Positions 27,377 to 43,018 of a stretch of 64,000 nt of DNA are shown piece by piece. How positions within the stretch are numbered: position 1 is the stretch's first letter; each line of letters opens with the position of its first letter. Under the pieces are notes generated by a model. The model ran no database searches. It was given only the letters and a program-made list of their open reading frames with translations, and was not told the origin of the DNA. Source of the stretch: Sphingobium naphthae (lineage in GTDB: Bacteria > Pseudomonadota > Alphaproteobacteria > Sphingomonadales > Sphingomonadaceae); the NCBI RefSeq assembly GCF_020782235.1, contig NZ_JAJGNO010000001.1:124001-188000 (forward strand), given 5' to 3'. The translations under genes and the position numbers were made by a program.

Positions 27377-28042
27377 ATGATGGACGCGCTGGCCCATGTC
27401 GACACCTGGATCTTCGATCTGGACAATACGCTCTATCCGGCGAAGGCGGACCTGTTCGCGCTGATGGACGTGAAGATGGGCGAGTTCATCCAGGGCCTGC
27501 TGGGATGCGACGCCGCTGTCGCGCGCGAGACGCAGAAGCGCTATTTCCTGGAGCATGGCACGACATTGTCGGGCCTGATGCACCATCATGGCATCGAGCC
27601 GGGCGACTATCTGGCCTATGTCCACGATATTTCGATGGATCGGCTGGAGGTGGACGAAGCGCTCAACAACCATATCGCCGCCTTGCCGGGCCGGCGGCTG
27701 ATCTTCACCAATGGCGACGCCGATTATGCGGGCCGCGTGCTGGATCGGCTGGGCCTGGGCCAGGCGTTCGAGCTGATCCACGACATCCATGCCTGCCAAT
27801 ATGTGCCCAAGCCCGACCCGTCGGGCTATGACGCGCTGTGCCGCGCGCATGACGTCGATCCGACGCGCGCCGCCTTTTTCGAGGACATGGCGCGCAATCT
27901 GAAACCCGCCAAGGCGATCGGGATGACCACCATCTGGGTCAATAACGGATCGGAAGCGGGCAATCACGACCACCATCCCGATTTCATCGATTTCGAAACC
28001 GACCATCTGACGCCATTTCTGGCCGACATTCTGGGGAAATGA
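27377..28042 (+). CDS. HAD-family pyrimidine 5'-nucleotidase
   Basis: A 221-residue HAD hydrolase of the SDT1/PHM8-like pyrimidine 5'-nucleotidase group. Motif I is FDLDNTLYP near residue 13, motif II FTNGD near 111, the motif III lysine is in YVPKPDP near 138, and motif IV FFEDM near 160. The start is ATG at 27377 or the next codon. The stop overlaps the dapD start (ATGA at 28039-28042), so the two are co-translated. This order with dapD is familiar from other alphaproteobacteria. Confidence 0.88.
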
Positions 28043-28893
28043 CCATGAGCCAAGAGCTGATCACCACCATCGACGCCGCCTGGGAAGACCGGGCCAATGT
28101 CAGCCTGACGACGCAGGGCCCCGTGCGCCAGGCGGTCGACAAGGCGCTGAGCCTGCTCGACAAGGGCGAACTGCGCGTCGCCGAACCCACCGGCGCTGAC
28201 GGGTCCGGCTGGCAGGTCAATCAGTGGGCGAAGAAGGCGGTGCTGCTGTCCTTCCGCCTGAACGACAATGTCATGATCGACAATGGCCCGGGCGCCGGCC
28301 ATTGGTGGGACAAGGTGCCGAGCAAGTTCGCCGGCTGGGACGAGGCCGCATTCCGCGCCGCCGGCTTCCGCGCGGTGCCGGGCAGCTTCGCGCGCGCCGG
28401 ATCGCACATCGCCCGCAACGTCATCCTGATGCCAAGCTTCGTCAATATCGGCGCCTTCGTCGATGAAGGCACGATGGTCGACACCTGGGTGACGGTGGGC
28501 AGCTGCGCCCAGATCGGCAAGAATGTCCATTTGTCGGGCGGCGTGGGCATTGGCGGCGTGCTGGAGCCGCTGCAGGCCGATCCGGTCATCATCGAGGATG
28601 ACTGCTTCATCGGCGCGCGGTCCGAAGTCGTGGAAGGCGTGCGCATCGGCAAGGGTTCGGTGCTGTCGATGGGCGTGTTCATCGGCCAGTCGACCAAGAT
28701 CGTCGATCGCACCACCGGCGAGATCTTCATGGGCGAAGTGCCGCCCTATTCGGTCGTCGTGCCCGGCAGCCTGCCCGGCAAGCCGCTGCCCGACGGCACG
28801 CCCGGCCCCAGCCTCTATTGCGCGGTGATCGTGAAGCGCGTCGACGCGCAGACCCGGTCCAAGACCGGCATCAACGACCTGCTGCGCGACTGA
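28039..28893 (+). CDS. dapD: Tetrahydrodipicolinate N-succinyltransferase
   Basis: Succinyl-CoA-dependent step of lysine and meso-diaminopimelate synthesis. It has 284 residues, with an N-terminal helical domain and a left-handed beta-helix of hexapeptide repeats (about 110-240). Signatures are [20 protein letters not shown] near residue 132, [20 protein letters not shown] near 175 and the C-terminal [23 protein letters not shown] at 28045 would be equally good. Confidence 0.96.
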
Positions 28894-29032
28894 CGCATCC
28901 ACCGGCCATGGCGGGCCATGTTGCACGCCATGGCCGTTCATGGCGGCGCTGTTACGCGCCGTCACGCCAGCGACGCATTCTGAAATTCCTCCGCGATAAA
29001 GACGCGGCATCCTTCATGGGACTTTCGCACCC

Positions 29033-30280
29033 ATGGAGACTGATATGGGACGCCCCTGGTTCGTCCGCAGCGAATCCGCGCACCCTGCCCCGCACCCGCC
29101 GCAGCGCATCTGCTTCTTCTTCAACGCGCAGATCCACCAGCTTTTCCACGCGCTGCCGGTCGCGATCCAATTGTCGCGCAACGCGGGCTTTGCCGTGGAT
29201 GTGCTGGCCGCGACCGAGGATCATATCGCGCTCGCCCGCGACATGGCGGCGGGGCGCGGCGCGGGGCCGATCCGCTTCCGGCGCTGCGGCGGGGCGTGGC
29301 TGGAGGCGCTGACGCGCGTCAGCGGCGCGTCGATCCCGCCGAAGATCGCGGTGCTGCTGAGCGCGGCGCGCCAGTTGCGGCGCTATGACGCGATCGTCGT
29401 GCCGGAACGGACGTCCCTGCTGCTCAAGCGGCTGGGGCTGTGCAAGGCGCGCTTCATCCACACCTGCCACGGGGCGGGCGACCGGGCGGTGGGCTATGAC
29501 CGGCGGATCGCCCATTTCGATTTCGTGCTGCTGGCCGGCGAGAAGCAACGGCACAGGATGCTGGCGGAAGGGCTGATCCGCGAGGGGCATTATGCGATCA
29601 CCGGCTACAGCAAGTTCGACCTGACGCGGCCCGTGGCGTCGGCCGATCGGCTGTTCCCGGAGAAGCGGCCGATCGTGCTCTACAACCCGCATTTTTCGCC
29701 GCGCCTGTCTTCCTGGCCGACGATGGGCGAGGATATTATCCGCCAGTTCGCGCAGGACGATCGCTTCAACCTGATCGTCGCGCCGCATATCCGCCTGTTC
29801 GACAATCGCCGGCGGCGCGCGGCGATGGAGAAGCGGCTGGCCGACCTGGCGCGCATGCCGCACGTGCATATCGACCTGGGCAGCCGGGCGAGCGTCGACA
29901 TGCGCTATGTCCACATGGCCTCGCTCTATCTGGGCGACGTCAGCAGCCAGGTCTATGAATATCTGGCGCGGCCGCGCCCCTGCCTGTTCCTGAACGGCCA
30001 CCGCGCCGATTGGCAGGAGGACCGCAGCTATGGCCATTGGCGCTATGGGCCGGTGCTGGAGACGGCGCAGGACATCGTCGATCAGGCCGCAAGGGCGATC
30101 GACACGCATGCCGCCTATGTTGCCGCCCAGCATCAGGGCCTGTCCCGCACCTTCGACCATGGCAGCGAGGGCGCGGGAGTCCGCGCGGCGCGCGCGATCG
30201 CCCAGTATCTGGACGCCGAGCGGCAGAGCGCGAACCGCCGCAAGGACAGACGCGTGCCGCTGGAGCTGGCCCATGGGTGA
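29033..30280 (+). CDS. CDP-glycerol glycerophosphotransferase-like protein
   Basis: A 415-residue protein resembling the TagB/TagF-like, GT-B-fold family that handles polyol phosphates or sugars in surface polymers. Seen: CHGAGDRAVGYDRRIAHFD near residue 143, ITGYSKFDL near 188, VLYNPHFSPRLSSW near 212, and YLGDVSSQVYEYLA with the family's S-S-x-x-E/Y pattern near 300. The role (teichoic-acid-like polymer, capsule or lipopolysaccharide) is inferred. It overlaps the next glycosyltransferase by eight bases. Start ATG at 29033; ATG at 29045 is possible. Confidence 0.7.
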   Translation: METDMGRPWFVRSESAHPAPHPPQRICFFFNAQIHQLFHALPVAIQLSRNAGFAVDVLAATEDHIALARDMAAGRGAGPIRFRRCGGAWLEALTRVSGASIPPKIAVLLSAARQLRRYDAIVVPERTSLLLKRLGLCKARFIHTCHGAGDRAVGYDRRIAHFDFVLLAGEKQRHRMLAEGLIREGHYAITGYSKFDLTRPVASADRLFPEKRPIVLYNPHFSPRLSSWPTMGEDIIRQFAQDDRFNLIVAPHIRLFDNRRRRAAMEKRLADLARMPHVHIDLGSRASVDMRYVHMASLYLGDVSSQVYEYLARPRPCLFLNGHRADWQEDRSYGHWRYGPVLETAQDIVDQAARAIDTHAAYVAAQHQGLSRTFDHGSEGAGVRAARAIAQYLDAERQSANRRKDRRVPLELAHG

Positions 30281-31418
30281 GCGTGGCCCGCACATCTGGA
30301 TGGTCGCGCGCGTCTACGCGCCCGACGAGGGCGGGGTGCAGACCTACGCCCGCGAAGTGGGGCGCGCCTATGCCGCTTCGGGCCGGCGCGTCACCATCTT
30401 CGCCAAGAGTTCGGCCGGCCCCCGCCGGGTGCGGGAGGGCGGCATCGACCTGATCGACGTCGGCGCCGCATCGATGCTGAGGGTCTATTGGCGGCTGCTG
30501 CGCGCCATGATCGGCGCCTGGCTAAGCGGCGCGCGGCCGGACATGATCCATGCCTGCACCTGGCGCGCGGCGCTGCCCGCCCTGCTCTTCCCGGGCGCGA
30601 TGGTGATCACCGTCCATGGCCGCGAAGTGGGGCGGCCGCGCGGGCTCGCCTTCCTGCTGCTGTCGCTGACGCTGCGGCGGGCAAGACGCATCGTGGCGGT
30701 GAGCGACGCGACGCGCGCCCTGCTGATCGATCGGCTGCCGGCGCTGGACGATCGCACCATCACCGCCTGGAACGGCGTCGTCATGCCGCCCGAACGCCCG
30801 CCCACGCCCTTCGCCCGGCGCGAGGGCCATGCCCAGGTGCTGAGCGTGTGCCGGCTGGTCGCGCGCAAGAATATGGCGGCGGCGGTCCGCGCGGTCGCCG
30901 GCGCGCTCCGGACGGGCGCGCGGCTGCGCCATTGCATCATCGGCCGGGGCGTCGATGGCGTGCGGGTGCGCGAGGCTATCCGCCAATGCGGCGTCGAAGG
31001 CGCGGTGACGATGGCGGGCTATGTCGCGGCCGAGCAGCTGGAGGAGGCCTATCGCAACGCCGACATCTTCCTGCATCCGCAGATCGCGCTGGAGGATGGC
31101 GCGGAAGTAGAGGGCTTTGGCCTGTCGATCGCCGACGCGATGGCGCAGGGGATCGTCTGCATCGTCGGGCGCGATGGCGGGCCGGCGGAGTTCGTGCGCG
31201 ACGGCGTCACCGGCTTTGTCGTGGACGGCCGATCGCAGGACGCGATCCGCGCCGCGCTGGACCTGCTGGCGCGCGATCCCGCGCTGTGCCTGCGGGTGGG
31301 CGAGCGCGCCCGCGCCTGGGTGGCGCACAACCTTTCCTGGGACCGGCATGTCCGGCTGTGCCTGGGCGAGGAGGATGGCGCGCCATTGCCGTCCGGCGCG
31401 CTGGCGCGGGCCGCCTGA
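30273..31418 (+). CDS. Glycosyltransferase family 4
   Basis: A 381-residue GT-B glycosyltransferase. Seen: an N-terminal acceptor domain with VYAPDEGGVQTYAREVG near residue 14, ITVHGREVG near 112, the donor-domain start VLSVCRLVARKNMAAAVRA near 190, and the EGFGLSIADAMAQG nucleotide-sugar motif with its E-x7-E-like spacing near 281. It is linked by overlaps to the transferase upstream (8 bases) and the sulfotransferase downstream (TGATG). The sugar is unknown; a retaining mechanism is expected for the family. Confidence 0.85.
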   Translation: MGERGPHIWMVARVYAPDEGGVQTYAREVGRAYAASGRRVTIFAKSSAGPRRVREGGIDLIDVGAASMLRVYWRLLRAMIGAWLSGARPDMIHACTWRAALPALLFPGAMVITVHGREVGRPRGLAFLLLSLTLRRARRIVAVSDATRALLIDRLPALDDRTITAWNGVVMPPERPPTPFARREGHAQVLSVCRLVARKNMAAAVRAVAGALRTGARLRHCIIGRGVDGVRVREAIRQCGVEGAVTMAGYVAAEQLEEAYRNADIFLHPQIALEDGAEVEGFGLSIADAMAQGIVCIVGRDGGPAEFVRDGVTGFVVDGRSQDAIRAALDLLARDPALCLRVGERARAWVAHNLSWDRHVRLCLGEEDGAPLPSGALARAA

Positions 31419-32422
31419 TGGGCGCGATCGTCCATATCGGTTATCACAAGACGGGCACGACCTGGTTCCAGGAGCGTTTCTACCCCGCGGTGCGCAACCG
31501 CCGCTATGTGCCGCGCGCCACCGCGCGCGCCGCGTTCCTGCAGCCGGGCGCGCTGCATTTCGACCCGATCGAGGCGCTGCACATCATCGGCGCGGCGGCG
31601 GACGAGACGATCCTGTGCGAGGAAAATCTGAGCGGCGGACTGCATAATGGCGGCCTGGCCGGCGCCTTGTCCAAGGATGTGGCGAGCCGGATCGCGCGCA
31701 CCCTGCCCGATGCGCAGATCGTCATCTTCGTGCGCGATCCGCTGTCGGCGATCGCATCGGCCTGGGTGCAATATGTAAAGGGCGGCGGCACGTTCGGGCT
31801 GCGGCGCTATCTGTTCGGGCGCGACCGGCTGAGCCCCGTGGCGCCCGAACGGGACGAGCCGCCCGGATTCTGCTTCGAGCATTTCGACTATGCCCGGCTG
31901 ATCGCCCACTATGATGCGCTGTTCGGGCCGGAGCAGGTCCATGTCTTTCGCTACGAACATTTTCGCGCCGACCCGCGCGGCTTTGCGGCGCGCTATGCCG
32001 CCCGGCTGGGGCTGGAGGTCGACCTGGACCAGATCGACTGGCGCGCGCGCAACCCGTCGCTCAGCCGGCCGCTGCTCTGGATGGCGCGAGCGATGAACCT
32101 GTTCACGCGGCGCGCGGTGGCGGACAAGAGCTGGATCGTCCATATACCCGGCTGGTACAAGCTGAGCCGACGGCTGCTGCGCCGCGCCAGCGCGTCGGGC
32201 CGGTTCGGCCGCCCGCTGCGCGCGCAGGCGCTGATCGACCCGGCGCTGCGCCATCATATCCGCACCCGCTATGCCCAGAGCGAGGCGCTGCTGGCGGCGC
32301 GGCTGCGCTGGCAGGACGCAGCGTTGCGGGACAGCGACGGCTGGGCGAAGACGGGTCGCGGCCGGCGGCGGCGTCATGGCGATGATGATCGCCCTTCACA
32401 GACGCCTGCTCATTGTCGATGA
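31418..32422 (+). CDS. PAPS-dependent sulfotransferase domain protein
   Basis: A 334-residue soluble sulfotransferase. The 5'-phosphosulfate loop is GYHKTGTTWFQ near residue 8, and the 3'-phosphate-binding region is VIFVRDPLSAIASAW near 104. The position after two glycosyl/glycerol-phosphate transferases suggests that it sulfates a surface glycan. The start ATG at 31418 overlaps the preceding stop. Its last ~16 codons are shared, in another frame, with the response regulator, and the Arg-rich C-terminus (GRGRRRRHGDDD) may be a by-product of that overlap. Confidence 0.82.
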   Translation: MGAIVHIGYHKTGTTWFQERFYPAVRNRRYVPRATARAAFLQPGALHFDPIEALHIIGAAADETILCEENLSGGLHNGGLAGALSKDVASRIARTLPDAQIVIFVRDPLSAIASAWVQYVKGGGTFGLRRYLFGRDRLSPVAPERDEPPGFCFEHFDYARLIAHYDALFGPEQVHVFRYEHFRADPRGFAARYAARLGLEVDLDQIDWRARNPSLSRPLLWMARAMNLFTRRAVADKSWIVHIPGWYKLSRRLLRRASASGRFGRPLRAQALIDPALRHHIRTRYAQSEALLAARLRWQDAALRDSDGWAKTGRGRRRRHGDDDRPSQTPAHCR

Positions 32423-33092
32423 CGACGCCGCGCTGACCGCCCAGCTGGCGGACCAGTTCAGCCCCTATGGCTTCGATGCCGATGGCGCGGCGACCCCCGC
32501 GGAAATGCGGATCATGCTCGCCCGGCGCGACTATGCGCTGGTGGTGCTCGATCCGATGGTGCAGCCGGCGAACGCCGCTGGCCTGCTGCGCGAGCTGATC
32601 GCGGAGCATCGCCTGCCGGTGATCCTCCATTCGGCCGCCTGCCTGGAAGCGGAGCGAATCGCCGCGCTGGAATTCGGCGCGGACGATTGCCTGTCCAAGC
32701 CCGCCCATCCCCGCGAGCTGCTGGCGCGCATCCGCGCCGCGCTGCGCGGCCGGGTGCAGGACCGCCCCTCCCCATCGGCGACCATCCGCTTCGCCGGCTG
32801 GCGGATCGACCTGGAGACCGGGCAGCTGTTCGACGGCACCGGCCGGTCGGTGCCCCTGTCGGAGGGCGAGTTCCAGCTGCTGCGCGTCTTTGTCGAACAT
32901 CCGCGCCAGGTGCTGGATCGCGGCCATCTGCTCGACCGCGTCTATGGCGACGCCAGCGAGCATTTCGACCGGTCGATCGACGTCCAGCTATGCCGGCTGC
33001 GCCGCAAGCTGTCGGCGAGCGGGCTGAAAGGGCCGGTCATCCGCACGATCCGCAACGAAGGCTATATGTTCGTGCATGCGGTGACGCACTGA
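32376..33092 (+). CDS. OmpR-family response regulator
   Basis: A 238-residue two-component regulator: receiver domain (about 10-125) and winged-helix DNA-binding domain (about 140-235). The phosphorylation apparatus is intact: the acidic pair in LLIVDDDAAL, the acceptor Asp in VVLDPMVQP near residue 55, Ser in ILHSAA, and Lys in CLSKPAHP near 108. No histidine kinase lies next to it, so it is an orphan here. The start overlaps the sulfotransferase end by 47 bases; ATGs at 32382 and 32385 are alternatives. It probably controls the polysaccharide genes, an inference from position. Confidence 0.88.
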   Translation: MAMMIALHRRLLIVDDDAALTAQLADQFSPYGFDADGAATPAEMRIMLARRDYALVVLDPMVQPANAAGLLRELIAEHRLPVILHSAACLEAERIAALEFGADDCLSKPAHPRELLARIRAALRGRVQDRPSPSATIRFAGWRIDLETGQLFDGTGRSVPLSEGEFQLLRVFVEHPRQVLDRGHLLDRVYGDASEHFDRSIDVQLCRLRRKLSASGLKGPVIRTIRNEGYMFVHAVTH

Positions 33093-33096
33093 TCCG

Positions 33097-34086
33097 TCAT
33101 TCCAGCGCCAGCAGCGCGAAGGTGGCGAGCCAATGTTCGCCCATATAGTCGCCCGCGACATGCGGCAGGCTGGCGTCGAGATGCACCTGCGCCGCCCGCT
33201 GCGCCAGCGGGCTGACCGGATCGTCCGGGCCGAGCGCCGCCGCGATCCCGCGCCAGCACCAGGCGCGGCTGAGATTGAGGCCGTCGAGATGCGCGATCTT
33301 GCCATCGCTGCGGTCCGACACGGTGGCGGGCGTGAAGAGCGTCGCGGGTTCGCCCTGGGACAGGACCGGCAGGAAGTCGTGGAACCAGGCGGCGAAGGCG
33401 GCGCGATCCAGGATGCGGCTCATCAGCAGCGCTTCGCACAGGGTGGGTGAGAGAAATTCGTCGCCGCCCGGCTCCCACGCCTGACAGGCGCGGTCGCGAC
33501 CGAACCAGTGCAGCGCGCGCGTCCGGATGAGGGCGACCAGCGCGTTGTCGCGCCGCTGCGCCCAATCGAGCGCGTGGATCAGCGCGAAGGCGATGTTGTA
33601 GTGAGTGCCGACGCGCAGCGGATAGGTGAGCTTGGGCAGGAAGACGTGGAAGCGAGCGGCGAAATCGCCCGCCAGCGGCGCGAGGGCCGCCGCCCAGGGG
33701 GCATCGTGCCGATCCAGTTCGGCATGGAGCGCGAGCAGCCAGGCCCAGCCATAGGGCCGTTCGAACCCTGCGCTCATCGGCCGGGTCAGATATTCGCGTT
33801 CCCCCGCGACATGCGCCGGCGTCAGCATCGCATCGGCGCGGGCGCGAATGGCGGGCGCTTGCGCCACATCGGGGAAAAGCCGCATCAGCCGCATCACCTG
33901 CCACCAGCCATGGACGCAGCTATGCCAGTCGAAACTGCCATGGAAGATAGGGTGATGCTCGCGCGGCGGGCGCGCGTCCTGCGGCCCGTTCAGCACCAGG
34001 TCCATCTTGAAGGGATATTCGCGGCCGAGATGCGACAGGGTGAGCGCCGCGAAACGGCTGGCGATGTCCGGAGTGAGCAGGGTCAT
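33097..34086 (-). CDS. DUF2891 family protein
   Basis: A 329-residue protein of the DUF2891 family. Typical blocks are HPIFHGSFDWHSCVHGWW near residue 45, RPYGWAWLLALHAEL near 112, RVGTHYNIAFAL near 160 and the C-terminal VAGDYMGEHWLATFALLAL. The His/Trp-rich core looks like an alpha/alpha-toroid, as in glycan- or peptide-cleaving enzymes, but no activity is known to me. No signal peptide is seen. The start overlaps the DUF979 stop by four bases, the last link of an acylase-DUF969-DUF979 operon. Confidence 0.8.
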   Translation of the reverse strand: MTLLTPDIASRFAALTLSHLGREYPFKMDLVLNGPQDARPPREHHPIFHGSFDWHSCVHGWWQVMRLMRLFPDVAQAPAIRARADAMLTPAHVAGEREYLTRPMSAGFERPYGWAWLLALHAELDRHDAPWAAALAPLAGDFAARFHVFLPKLTYPLRVGTHYNIAFALIHALDWAQRRDNALVALIRTRALHWFGRDRACQAWEPGGDEFLSPTLCEALLMSRILDRAAFAAWFHDFLPVLSQGEPATLFTPATVSDRSDGKIAHLDGLNLSRAWCWRGIAAALGPDDPVSPLAQRAAQVHLDASLPHVAGDYMGEHWLATFALLALE

Positions 34087-35021
34087 GGGAAGGCGAGCCA
34101 GTAGATGAGGAAGATGTTGACGATGAGCAGCGGGACGGCGGTGCCGACCTGCCGCTTGATGACGCCATGCTTGTCCTTGAGGTCCAGCAGCGCGGCGGGC
34201 ACGAGATTGAAATTGGCCGCCATCGGCGTCATCAGCGTGCCGCAGAAGCCCGCCAGCATGCCGATGGCGCAGACGATCGCCGGATCGCCGCCATAGGTGC
34301 GGATCAGCAGCGGCAGGCCGATCGCGGCGGTCATCACCGGGAAGGCGGCGAAGGCATTGCCCATGACCATAGTGAAGAGCGCCATGCCAAGCCCATAGGC
34401 GATGACCGCGCCCAACAGGCTGCCCTGCGGGATCGCCATGCTGACGATCTGGCCCACGACATCCCCCACCCCCGCCAGCGCGAACACGGCGCCGAGGCTG
34501 GCGAGCATCTGCGGCAGGATGGCAGCCCAGCCGACCGAGTCCATCAGCCTGCGTCCCTGTTGCAGCGGCTCGGTCGGGCCGGCGCGCAGCCAGAGGCATC
34601 CGACCAGCGATGCGATCAGCACCCCCAGCGCCAGCGCGATCAGCGTCGCCTGCTTGCCGTCGAACCAGGCCGGCGCCTGCTTGAACGCGAAGGTGCCGAC
34701 CAGCGCGGTGGCAGGGATGATCAGCGCGATGACGAACAGCCGATTGCCCATGCGCGCCGATCGGTCGCGGCGCACGGCGTCGGGCACCGGCCCCTGCCCG
34801 CGCCCCATGCCGCCAAGCCCCGCCAGCGCCACGAGCCCCAGCAGCAGCACGCCATTGCCCAGATCGCCCAGCCAGTCGCCACCCCACATGCTGAGCGCCA
34901 GCAGCGCCCAGAAGGCGGCCGTCGTCCAGCGGCGCGGATTGGCGCGATCGGCCAGGCCCAGCAGCGCGAAAGCGGCGAACATCGCGCCCGCCACGGCATA
35001 GACCCAGTGCAGCGTGATCAT
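34083..35021 (-). CDS. DUF979 membrane protein (two-part transporter subunit)
   Basis: A 312-residue inner-membrane protein of the DUF979 family with about nine to ten spans and a conserved MVMGNAFAAFPVMTAAIG stretch near residue 208. DUF979 and DUF969 proteins nearly always occur as a pair and behave like a two-subunit permease. As far as I recall, such pairs have been connected with 5-oxoproline uptake. Four-base overlaps join it to DUF969 upstream and DUF2891 downstream. Confidence 0.82.
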   Translation of the reverse strand: MITLHWVYAVAGAMFAAFALLGLADRANPRRWTTAAFWALLALSMWGGDWLGDLGNGVLLLGLVALAGLGGMGRGQGPVPDAVRRDRSARMGNRLFVIALIIPATALVGTFAFKQAPAWFDGKQATLIALALGVLIASLVGCLWLRAGPTEPLQQGRRLMDSVGWAAILPQMLASLGAVFALAGVGDVVGQIVSMAIPQGSLLGAVIAYGLGMALFTMVMGNAFAAFPVMTAAIGLPLLIRTYGGDPAIVCAIGMLAGFCGTLMTPMAANFNLVPAALLDLKDKHGVIKRQVGTAVPLLIVNIFLIYWLAFP

Positions 35022-35701
35022 GCCGCCTCCTCCGTCGCCGCCGGGCCGCGCTTCAGCCGGCGGTCGAGCCGCCAGAGCCGGAAGCCATGGATCAGGAAAG
35101 CGGCAATGGCGGTCGGGATCGCCCAGACCGACAGGTGCAGCGGCTCCAGGCTGATGCCATATTGCTCCAGCAGTCCCTTGATCAGCAGGATCGATCCGAT
35201 GGCGAGGAAAATATCCTCACCGAAGAACAGGCCGATATTGTCGGTCGCGGCCGCCCAGGCCTTCACTTCCTCGCGCCGATCATCGTCCAGATCGCCGGCC
35301 TGCGCCTCCGCCGCCGCTTCGGCGATCGGCGCGACGAGCGGGCGCACCGTCTGGGCGTGACCGGCGACCGATGTGAGGCCCACCGCCGCCAGCCCCTGGC
35401 GCAGCAGCATATAGCCGGCGAGGAACTGCCCCACCGTCGCGCCGCGCATCCTTGCGATGAGGCCGCGCGCCCTTTCCTGCAGGCCATAGGCTTCGAGCAG
35501 GCCGACCACGGGCAGCACGATCCAGATGATGCTGACATAGCGTGCTTCGTTGAACGCCTTGCCGAAAGCGGCGAGGATGGTCAGCGGATCGAGCCCGGCC
35601 GCGATGCCGGTGACGATCGCCGAGGCGAGGATCACCAGCAGCGGATGGAAGCGCAGCAGAAAGCCCGCGACGATGACGACGATGCCGAGCAGGACCCACA
35701 T
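35018..35701 (-). CDS. DUF969 membrane protein (partner of DUF979)
   Basis: A 227-residue inner-membrane protein with about five spans. Family features are FHPLLVILASAIVTGIAAGL near residue 18, the RGATVGQFLAGYMLLRQG region near 85 and DNIGLFFGEDIFLAIGSILL near 153. It is the presumed small subunit of the permease formed with DUF979. It starts 9 bases after the penicillin-acylase-family gene, which suggests import or recapture of that enzyme's product. Confidence 0.82.
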   Translation of the reverse strand: MWVLLGIVVIVAGFLLRFHPLLVILASAIVTGIAAGLDPLTILAAFGKAFNEARYVSIIWIVLPVVGLLEAYGLQERARGLIARMRGATVGQFLAGYMLLRQGLAAVGLTSVAGHAQTVRPLVAPIAEAAAEAQAGDLDDDRREEVKAWAAATDNIGLFFGEDIFLAIGSILLIKGLLEQYGISLEPLHLSVWAIPTAIAAFLIHGFRLWRLDRRLKRGPAATEEAA

Positions 35702-35710
35702 GCGCGCGCC

Positions 35711-37909
35711 CTAGGACCCGGGGCGATAGCGGCGCTCGACATGGCCGGCGAGTTCGTCGGGATAGAAATAGACGGGCCGCAGCGTGCCGTTCGCATAAAG
35801 GGGCGACTGGTCGTTGAAATGCGGCGAGGCGGGATCGCCGCTTTCGCCGCCGACGCTCACCGCCCTGGCGTGGACGCGATCGCCGAACTCCACCGCGGCG
35901 ATGAAGCTGTTGCCGCTGGTGCCATACCATTTGCGCGTGCCGGGATAGGCGCGCGCGCCGAAGGAGGCGAGCGAGCCCCAGCGCGCCGAGCTGAAGGGTA
36001 TGGGGATGCTGGGCGCCGCATCGTCGAACGTCGGCGTGATCGCGCCGGTCAACCGCTGCAGCCGGTTGATGTCGCCCCAGGGCGTGCGCCAGTCGCCGAA
36101 ATCCCGCTCCAGCCGCAAGACGACGGATGAAAGCAGCGACAGCTTCACCGCCGCCGGGGCGGCCGCCATCCGGTCATAGAGGGTGCGGGGCGCGCCTTGA
36201 CTGTGCGCCAGCGTCCATTGGCGCAGATCCTCCGCCCAGAGACAGGCGAGGCTGTTGGGCACCGAGCGCAGGCCCCAGCGATAGTCCCAGCCGCGCAGCG
36301 CGGCGATCGGCTCCGCCAGCGCCGCCTTGCGCGCGTCGCCCGCCGGCAGCGCATCCCAGGCGGCGGTCAGCATCGGCACGAAGCGCGCGAAAGCGGGCTG
36401 GTAGCTGTCGAAGGCGGCGGCGGTCAGGCTGTCGAGCGAATAGTTTTTGCCCGCCGACAGCAGCATGACGGCATGGTCGCCGCGCGGATTTTCACCCATC
36501 ATGTCCATGTAGCGCGGGAAATCGGCGGCCTTCTGGCTGTCCCGGCCCGCTGCCGACCAGGGACCGTTATTCGTGTTCTGGATCCAGCCGCCCGCCGGAT
36601 TGCGCAGGCCGGGCAGCGCATCGAGGGGCGTCAGCCCCTTCCAGTCGGTGGCGGGATCGCTGCCGTCCACTGGCTGCGTATAGTCGAAGCGATCATCGCG
36701 CAGCGGCACGAATTGCGGATGCAGATAGGCGATGGTGCCGTCGGCGTCGGCGAAGATGGTGTTATTGGACGAATTGGCCTGGCGCGCCGCGACCTTGACG
36801 AAGGCGGCATAATCGCGCGCCTTGGTGCGCATGAAGGATTGCTCCAGCGCGGGAATGGGCTTGTCCATCATCGCGAAGGCCACCCATTTGCCGTCCCGTT
36901 CGCCGATGATCGGCCCGTGATGGGTGCGATAGACGGTGAAGCGGCGCTCCGCGCGCGCGCCGTCTTTCGTGCGATAGGCCAGCGTGACCGTGGCGGCGCG
37001 GACCGGGCGCTGCTCCGCGCCATAGCGGTAGGTCAGCGCGCCATCGGGCCGGCGCGTCACCGTTTCGAGAAATTCGTCGACGGCATCCACCGTGCTGGAC
37101 GTGTGCATCCATCCGGCGGTCGGATTGAAGCCCTGATAGATGAAGAACTGCCCCCAGGTCGCAGCGCCATAGGCGTTCAGCCCTTCATCGCTGGTCATCT
37201 GCAGTTCGGAGCGGAAGAAGAAGCTGGTGTGCGGATTGATCCACAGCAAAGCGTGGCCGCTGGCGCTCTTGCCCGGCGCGATGGCGAAGCCGTTGGAGCC
37301 GCGCGGTTCGGGATCGGGATCGGCCATGGCGAGCGGGCGGCCGTCCGGCGCGCCGTAAAAGGCCTTGAGCCGGTCGAGCGGAATACGCTCGATATCGCCG
37401 CCGATGCTGCCTTCGGTGAAGCTGAGCGCCATCCAGGGTTCAAAGCGCGTGATGACGCGCGGCTTCACCTGCGGGTGGGTGGCGAGATAATAGTTGAGGC
37501 CGTCGGCCCAGGCGTCCATCAGCCTGCGCAGCCAAGCCGGGCTCGCCGCATAGTCGGCGCGCAGCTTTTGCGGGTCCATGTAGAGGCGCGCGCGCAGATC
37601 CTGCCAGATTGCGTCCTCCCCTTCCGCTTCCGCGGTGCGGCCGAGCGCGGTCAGATAATTGGCCTCGATCCGGTCGAAGTCGTCTTCGGCCTGGGCGTAG
37701 ATCATGCCGAAGACGGCGTCGGCGTCGCTGCGGCCATGGACATGGGCGATGCCCCAATCATCGCGCTGGATGGTGACGCGCGCCGCCTGCGCCCGCCATT
37801 CCGCCATGTCGGTGCGGGCTTCCGCGGTCTGGGCTTCGACGGCCTGGGCGATGAGAAGGACGGGCAGGAGAGCGGGCAGGATGCGGGCGAGCGGCAGCTT
37901 GAAAGTCAT
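35711..37909 (-). CDS. Penicillin acylase family N-terminal nucleophile hydrolase
   Basis: A 732-residue periplasmic precursor. It has a signal peptide (about 1-27), an alpha chain, and the autocatalytic cleavage site at RGSNGFA, where Ser205 would become the N-terminal nucleophile of the beta chain. Relatives hydrolyse amide bonds of penicillins, N-acyl-homoserine lactones and acyl amino acids. The exact substrate is open. It heads an operon with a DUF969/DUF979 permease and a DUF2891 protein, which points to use of an N-acylated or cyclic amino compound as nutrient. Confidence 0.85.
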   Translation of the reverse strand: MTFKLPLARILPALLPVLLIAQAVEAQTAEARTDMAEWRAQAARVTIQRDDWGIAHVHGRSDADAVFGMIYAQAEDDFDRIEANYLTALGRTAEAEGEDAIWQDLRARLYMDPQKLRADYAASPAWLRRLMDAWADGLNYYLATHPQVKPRVITRFEPWMALSFTEGSIGGDIERIPLDRLKAFYGAPDGRPLAMADPDPEPRGSNGFAIAPGKSASGHALLWINPHTSFFFRSELQMTSDEGLNAYGAATWGQFFIYQGFNPTAGWMHTSSTVDAVDEFLETVTRRPDGALTYRYGAEQRPVRAATVTLAYRTKDGARAERRFTVYRTHHGPIIGERDGKWVAFAMMDKPIPALEQSFMRTKARDYAAFVKVAARQANSSNNTIFADADGTIAYLHPQFVPLRDDRFDYTQPVDGSDPATDWKGLTPLDALPGLRNPAGGWIQNTNNGPWSAAGRDSQKAADFPRYMDMMGENPRGDHAVMLLSAGKNYSLDSLTAAAFDSYQPAFARFVPMLTAAWDALPAGDARKAALAEPIAALRGWDYRWGLRSVPNSLACLWAEDLRQWTLAHSQGAPRTLYDRMAAAPAAVKLSLLSSVVLRLERDFGDWRTPWGDINRLQRLTGAITPTFDDAAPSIPIPFSSARWGSLASFGARAYPGTRKWYGTSGNSFIAAVEFGDRVHARAVSVGGESGDPASPHFNDQSPLYANGTLRPVYFYPDELAGHVERRYRPGS

Positions 37910-42930: not shown

Positions 42931-43018
42931 GGGACTTCCCCCTTTTTAGCTATGTGTCAGTAGATGGAGCCGGCGACCGCCCGTTCTTGCGACGGACGGA
43001 CGCCTGATCGGGCTCGCG

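Follow-up and report, generated by a model that had tools for sequence, protein, structure and literature searches.

A conserved Sphingobium gene unit joining a sulfotransferase to an orphan OmpR-type regulator whose receiver is eroding

NodH is the rhizobial enzyme for sulfation of Nod factors, human heparan sulfotransferases act on a polymer, and sphingomonads lack ordinary lipopolysaccharide (LPS). The LPS sulfotransferase of Sinorhizobium, LpsS, is termed a member of the Stf0 family and stands under transcriptional control according to the available portion of PMC12445080, and ChxR, HP1043 and GlnR are presented in paper abstracts and in PMC12632262 as atypical OmpR-type regulators with degenerate or phosphorylation-independent receivers. 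Here we describe a locus of Sphingobium naphthae, located at positions 29033-33092 of a 64,000-nucleotide stretch of contig NZ_JAJGNO010000001.1 (hereafter the window) from a genome of 4.28 Mb. Four genes of the forward strand follow one another there: GT1 (29033..30280), for a putative GT-B enzyme resembling TagF and CDP-glycerol transferases; GT4 (30273..31418), for a glycosyltransferase of family 4; ST (31418..32422), for a sulfotransferase of the type using 3'-phosphoadenosine 5'-phosphosulfate (PAPS); and RR (32376..33092), for an orphan response regulator of the OmpR/PhoB type. The likeness to LpsS and NodH would lie in alphaproteobacterial glycan sulfation under transcriptional control, which for LpsS is taken from the same portion of PMC12445080; by description, not by sequence, LpsS is set apart as an Stf0 protein, whereas ST matches PF13469 and PF00685 and is accompanied by two glycosyltransferases and an orphan regulator. 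The difference from ChxR, HP1043 and GlnR is that degeneracy varies here among orthologs within one genus, with the window copy intact. Neither the sulfation of glycans nor an OmpR regulator of the orphan type is novel in kind; what is new is that the two occur together, that the enzymes are repeatedly missing where RR persists, and that receiver decay forms a gradient within one genus.

As originally predicted, the four genes overlap end to end, with overlaps as annotated of 8 (GT1/GT4), 1 (GT4/ST) and 47 bases (ST/RR), and they form one unit. Orthologs of ST were found in 19 of 94 Sphingobium genomes (68-100% identity; next best match 40%), and GT1-GT4-ST-RR occurred in the same order and on the same strand in all 19 (12/12 from the GT1 search, 6/6 further genomes, and the window), which argues for an arrangement beyond chance. 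The unit follows dapD in 13 of these genomes and has no dapD within the 14-18 kb fetched in the other six; it is a conserved, movable unit in some Sphingobium. In the window it lies at the dapD site, one chromosomal site of the cassette, marked by dapD upstream (28039..28893, plus strand; TIGR00965 over cut-off, and synteny) and by a convergent DUF2891 gene downstream (33097..34101, minus strand; PF11199, and synteny). Two of the annotated starts are probably displaced. For GT1 the more likely start is 29045, where GGAG is followed by ATGGGACGC and the resulting MGR is the start of several orthologs, and for RR it is 32385, which would leave an ST/RR overlap of 38 bases, as in most dapD-site orthologs. 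Gene calls at several comparison loci (including G289, L105, L107-L109, L131-L133, L135 and L142) came from a simple GC-based picker of open reading frames (ORFs), and their starts are rough.

Relatives with the same ST were present at 11 loci, nine from Sphingobium, one from a metagenome-assembled genome and one from Novosphingobium. A genome of another genus (G289) carries GT1-GT4-ST at 53-59%, with RR not alongside. In Novosphingobium sp. CF614 (locus L105, 5779-6999) an ST at 69% was found with no GT1, GT4 or RR within 12.9 kb, ahead of Fer2_3 (succinate-dehydrogenase-type) and AFG1 ATPase genes identified by Pfam; GT1-type genes lie elsewhere near the same gene pair (L131 and the L142 paralog by Pfam, L133 by eye), so that in CF614 a solitary ST occupies a site that harbours GT1-type genes in other sphingomonads. 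The claim that sulfated surface glycans are uncommon in alphaproteobacteria outside Nod factors proved overstated: LPS sulfation by LpsS is known, as far as the available portion of PMC12445080 goes, and a search of 347 genomes from the family to which the window belongs gave an ST match of some kind, mostly weak, in 33 of them at E 0.001.

The RR protein exceeded the cut-offs of both PF00072 (50.8 bits) and PF00486 (73.7 bits), as an OmpR/PhoB-type regulator does, and the absence of a kinase beside it was borne out: across nine genes between 27377 and 37909 (ORF 35018-35701 left out), Pfam detected no histidine kinase domain. Orthologs of RR (at least 55% identity) occurred in 17 of 61 genomes of the genus, 13 with the cassette and four without. 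Among 23 RR orthologs an active-site Asp was changed in 14: the phosphoacceptor Asp59 was replaced by Glu in six, and Asp16, the second residue of the acidic pair, by Lys in four and by Asn in four. All five active-site residues were kept in nine, the window included, whereas they were kept in 25/25 of the comparison proteins (17 paralogs from the same genomes and eight outgroup proteins). Read off the tree, the changes correspond to about four separate events (Asp59Glu twice, Asp16Lys and Asp16Asn). The receiver diverged 1.82 times as much as the DNA-binding domain among the orphan regulators; the corresponding ratio was 1.02 for the 17 paralogs and 0.71 for the eight outgroup proteins. The RR receiver is eroding across its orthologs. 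According to the available portion of PMC4671073, there are regulators, though not all, in which Asp-to-Glu replacements at the phosphoacceptor and changes of the CheY D13K type imitate activation; both failed in EpsW.

The window RR itself retains D15, D16, D59, S86 and K108, shows none of the losses of key residues that define a pseudo-receiver, and may therefore still be phosphorylated. Ordinary two-component control, in which a kinase encoded elsewhere (for instance that of the G000:C4 paralog) would phosphorylate RR and the receiver changes of other orthologs would be noise, is the leading alternative, yet we consider it doubtful. It agrees with the intact window receiver and with the closest RR paralog of the same genome (G000:C4), which adjoins a HAMP-HisKA-HATPase kinase; it accounts poorly for an orphan clade with about four separate changes, spread over two catalytic positions, when none occurred in a paralog/outgroup clade of similar total length (4.86 vs. 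4.06 by FastTree), and for a receiver evolving faster than the DNA-binding domain. A histidine kinase lay alongside the regulator in the 3/3 sister-clade loci tested by Pfam, out of 25 and with the paralog of the window's genome included, so the orphan RR may have lost a partner. By eye, no kinase was seen beside the paralog in L107 and L109, and "kinase-linked" is true of some RR paralogs only; a regular expression for kinase genes found none near the 25 paralogs, yet Pfam found kinases in all three loci tested. At the G000:C4 locus (L106, 3359-6371) the paralog lies between the gene of a dioxygenase-domain protein and the histidine kinase gene, and comparable genes were seen by eye near related regulators from other genera (L107-L109).

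ST exceeded the Pfam cut-offs of PF13469 (41.4 bits; cut-off 27) and PF00685 (27.9 bits; cut-off 22). Of the solved folds, those nearest to its model belong to the human N- and 3-O-sulfotransferases of heparan sulfate (216-235 residues aligned at Z 15.7-16.8 with a root-mean-square deviation, rmsd, of 3.3-4.0), although at only 14-18% identity, whereas SULT-type/cytosolic, polyketide and tyrosyl-protein sulfotransferases remained at Z ≤12.0. Being closer to heparan than to small-molecule sulfotransferases, ST is a candidate for glycan sulfation, and its modelled fold favours a sugar acceptor, short of proof. Sulfotransferases using PAPS carry a 5'-phosphosulfate loop of the K-[ST]-G-T-[TS]-W type and a 3'-phosphate site of the form R-x7-S. 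The loop read YHKTGTTWFQ in 19 of 20 aligned rows and YHKTATSWFQ in the remaining one, a CEENL motif was present in 20/20, and at the 3'-phosphate site, matched by RDPLSAIAS in the window, Arg was kept in 20/20 rows and Ser in 17/20. The original prediction proposed a search for PAPS synthesis genes, and this gave a positive result: an adenosine 5'-phosphosulfate kinase domain fused to an EF-Tu-like GTPase is encoded next to the gene of a PAPS-reductase-type protein, and the window's genome is, on its gene content, able to make PAPS. The glycan-type fold and the PAPS supply agree with the predicted glycan sulfation, and from them we infer a sulfated surface glycan.

As for the glycosyltransferases, GT4 exceeded its Pfam cut-offs, as did ST and RR (PF00534, E 6.8e-31; PF13439, E 4e-17). 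The GT1 protein of the window had no Pfam or NCBIfam match at E 0.01 and none to PF04464 up to E 10, the curated cut-off of that family not being reached; six of 12 aligned members of its own family matched PF04464 weakly (best E 0.019). The family profile matched no PDB sequence at E 1, and the best match of a wider profile was the TagF-like Cps3D at E 0.086 only. An assignment of GT1 as a standard family member was dropped, there being no significant Pfam or NCBIfam match and only that E value in PDB. Its model aligned with TagF at Z 18.3 (rmsd 3.9, 318 residues), TagF being one of several best folds that scored alike, UDP-GlcNAc 2-epimerases and further GT-B families among them. Compared with the CDP-polyol polymerases TagF, TarL and Cps3D, GT1 shares a modelled fold without a significant sequence match, and epimerase folds are equally close; the label "CDP-glycerol-transferase-like" is weak but reasonable, holding for the fold and not for membership of PF04464. 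A GT1 paralog in the window's genome adjoins a CDP-alcohol phosphatidyltransferase gene, and at L135, from another genus, a gene of this kind and two for MobA-like nucleotidyltransferases are found in the neighbourhood of a related GT1. A Sphingobium locus (L070, L142) likewise carries a GT1 paralog and a CDP-alcohol phosphatidyltransferase, with nucleotidyltransferase-like and flippase-like genes in addition in L142 (by eye); it looks like a core surface-glycan pathway.

Export genes are associated with GT1 outside the window. GT1-GT4-ST of G289 and a flippase gene matching Polysacc_synt are oriented divergently, and so are GT1-GT4 and a similar gene in one further genus (three genomes: L131, tested by Pfam, and L132 and L133, judged by eye); homologs of the G289 flippase were detected in 11/11 Sphingobium genomes searched (38-41%). 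The G289 cassette (L071, 311-9440) also lies beside FlgK, a flagellin-type gene and MotA in addition to the flippase gene, a neighbourhood suggesting that the substrate may be flagellar or a surface glycan. These associations, together with the glycan-type fold of ST, make a product like the Nod factors, a small sulfated glycolipid or signal in place of a surface polysaccharide, unlikely, even though a cassette of just two transferases and one sulfotransferase, without polymerase or export gene and of patchy distribution, would suit such a molecule.

A block of the form ACGG-N17-CGTC lies at 32351..32375 (plus strand), in the 3' end of ST and 9 bases before the likely RR start. It was found 8-12 bases before the RR start in 23/23 orthologs, both where this DNA is coding (in ST) and where it is non-coding (in genomes with RR only), these orthologs being related by descent and not 23 independent events. 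No copy was present in 76 upstream regions of dapD, GT1, GT4 and ST at the same loci, nor in 25 upstream regions of paralog or outgroup regulators, and shuffled upstream regions contained it in 58 of 46000 cases. The core is fixed while the flanks vary, and the window copy has diverged inside with both ends kept. In the seven usable ST codons of the block no synonymous change occurred among the sequences with the commonest residue (13 ST sequences), whereas the mean share of the modal codon elsewhere in ST was 0.795 and none of 252 stretches of equal size matched this invariance. Since the block accompanies RR in 23/23 orthologs, those lacking ST included, and is missing from 101 control upstream regions, the stretch 32351-32375 inside the ST gene probably serves RR as a promoter or operator of its own. 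The spacing would fit a -35/-10 pair of an extracytoplasmic function (ECF) sigma factor, with transcription starting near the ATG; we know of no ECF-sigma consensus with which the block agrees. A longer pattern of the block (≤1 mismatch) matched upstream of RR in six of 10 genomes and at six other places in five genomes, and missed the diverged copies of G000, G348, G376 and G372. The copies elsewhere were set aside as chance level, with the backward control matching in two of 10 genomes (seven matches). A shorter exact pattern also occurred at window position 42995, away from any RR.

A second conserved element, a candidate promoter/operator of the cassette, lies upstream of GT1 (28950..28999, plus strand; TGTTACG, GACGCA, CTGAAAT, then GCGATAA). 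A loose regular expression located TGTTRCR plus a TGAAAT...GCRAWA-like stretch ahead of GT1 at 18 of 20 loci, the exceptions being L069, where the element is further upstream, and L071, without it; the conserved parts are TGTTRCR, a GACGCA-like motif, TGAAAT and a GCGATA-like motif. Its 29-base core occurred once in each of 6/6 cassette genomes and in 0/4 genomes lacking the cassette (10 genomes, ≤3 mismatches; the backward control gave one match, in the cassette-less G360). A wider regulon was rejected, no second site appearing in that search. In the dapD-site group, element spacings of about 10 and 21 bases would suit tandem binding of an OmpR-type protein.

Three of the four genomes that have RR without the cassette carry it between dapD and DUF2891 with GT1-GT4-ST missing, and in the fourth the contig begins at RR, with DUF2891 downstream. 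The regulator is accordingly less "built-in" than predicted, as four genomes keep it without the enzymes and a separate promoter or operator for it is probable. The rows of these four genomes are dispersed within the cassette rows of the RR tree, well-supported branches forcing at least three changes, for which repeated loss of GT1-GT4-ST would be the simplest account, with repeated gain as the alternative. Of the five long terminal branches in the tree, two belong to RR-only proteins, out of four such proteins, which fits the cassette as the main target of RR. One RR-only locus, L085, keeps 36 bases resembling the 3' end of ST (0/500 shuffles with each of seven partners). This stretch also matched the GT1 upstream region of L061 (0/500) and not the other six, and may be the regulatory block itself rather than a deletion scar; in L084 and L086 the likeness was borderline and varied by partner. 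That RR belongs to the dapD site and is unrelated to a cassette that merely integrated ahead of it is improbable, for although RR has its own upstream block and is kept at dapD-DUF2891 without the cassette, six genomes hold the whole unit with no dapD in 14-18 kb, as if RR travelled with the cassette, the nested RR-only rows suggest repeated loss, and L085 retains its ST-like bases.

Elsewhere in the window, near a DUF979 gene, 35711-37909 (minus strand) encodes a protein of the penicillin-amidase family, with a weak match to the PvdQ acylase model (E 1.1e-24; 86 bits against a cut-off of 950).

The reading we prefer, tentatively and at slightly less than even confidence, is that of a surface-glycan modification cassette with a regulator drifting out of kinase control. 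GT1 and GT4 would assemble or lengthen a carrier-borne glycan on the cytoplasmic side, where the unit added by GT1 may be a polyol phosphate activated with CDP; ST would transfer sulfate from PAPS, and the product would be exported by a Wzx-type flippase encoded elsewhere. GT1, GT4 and ST would be expressed from the conserved promoter upstream of GT1, and RR by read-through and from its own promoter within ST, to act on the GT1 promoter increasingly without phosphorylation. Several observations weigh against this reading. Besides the intact window receiver and the missing PF04464 match of GT1, the models are of moderate confidence (mean pLDDT, the predicted local distance difference test, 68 for GT1 and 74 for ST); the high-Z group of ST also includes the bacterial sulfotransferase 3rnl (Z 15.7), for which we know of no substrate; and the 3'-phosphate Ser is replaced by Ala in 3/20 rows. 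The cassette itself holds no flippase, polymerase or carrier-enzyme gene, and the flippase homolog of the window's genome gave no Pfam match at 1e-6. The other two RR-only proteins have ordinary branch lengths while the cassette-bearing L093 is also long, and four genomes keep RR while lacking both the cassette and the GT1 element, which points to possible further targets. A more far-reaching version is possible and clearly less probable: that a single genus contains a graded natural series along which a regulator of OmpR type, taken over by a mobile cassette for glycan sulfation, is turning kinase-independent via several routes, with its own promoter in the coding end of ST, GACGC-like half-sites possibly shared by the promoters of RR and GT1, and sulfation control that would be constitutive or dose-dependent.

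A literature search found nothing on sulfation of surface glycans in Sphingobium or other sphingomonads, and the conserved cassette offers a concrete genetic handle on it. How pseudo-receivers arise and switch is posed as an open question in the available portion of PMC12632262; the intact, Glu, Lys and Asn receivers found in one genus make up a matched set for both their origin and their switching, and RR is a natural case for following a regulator's loss of its kinase. The RR block inside ST further suggests that the control signal of a downstream gene may fix the tail of the protein encoded upstream.

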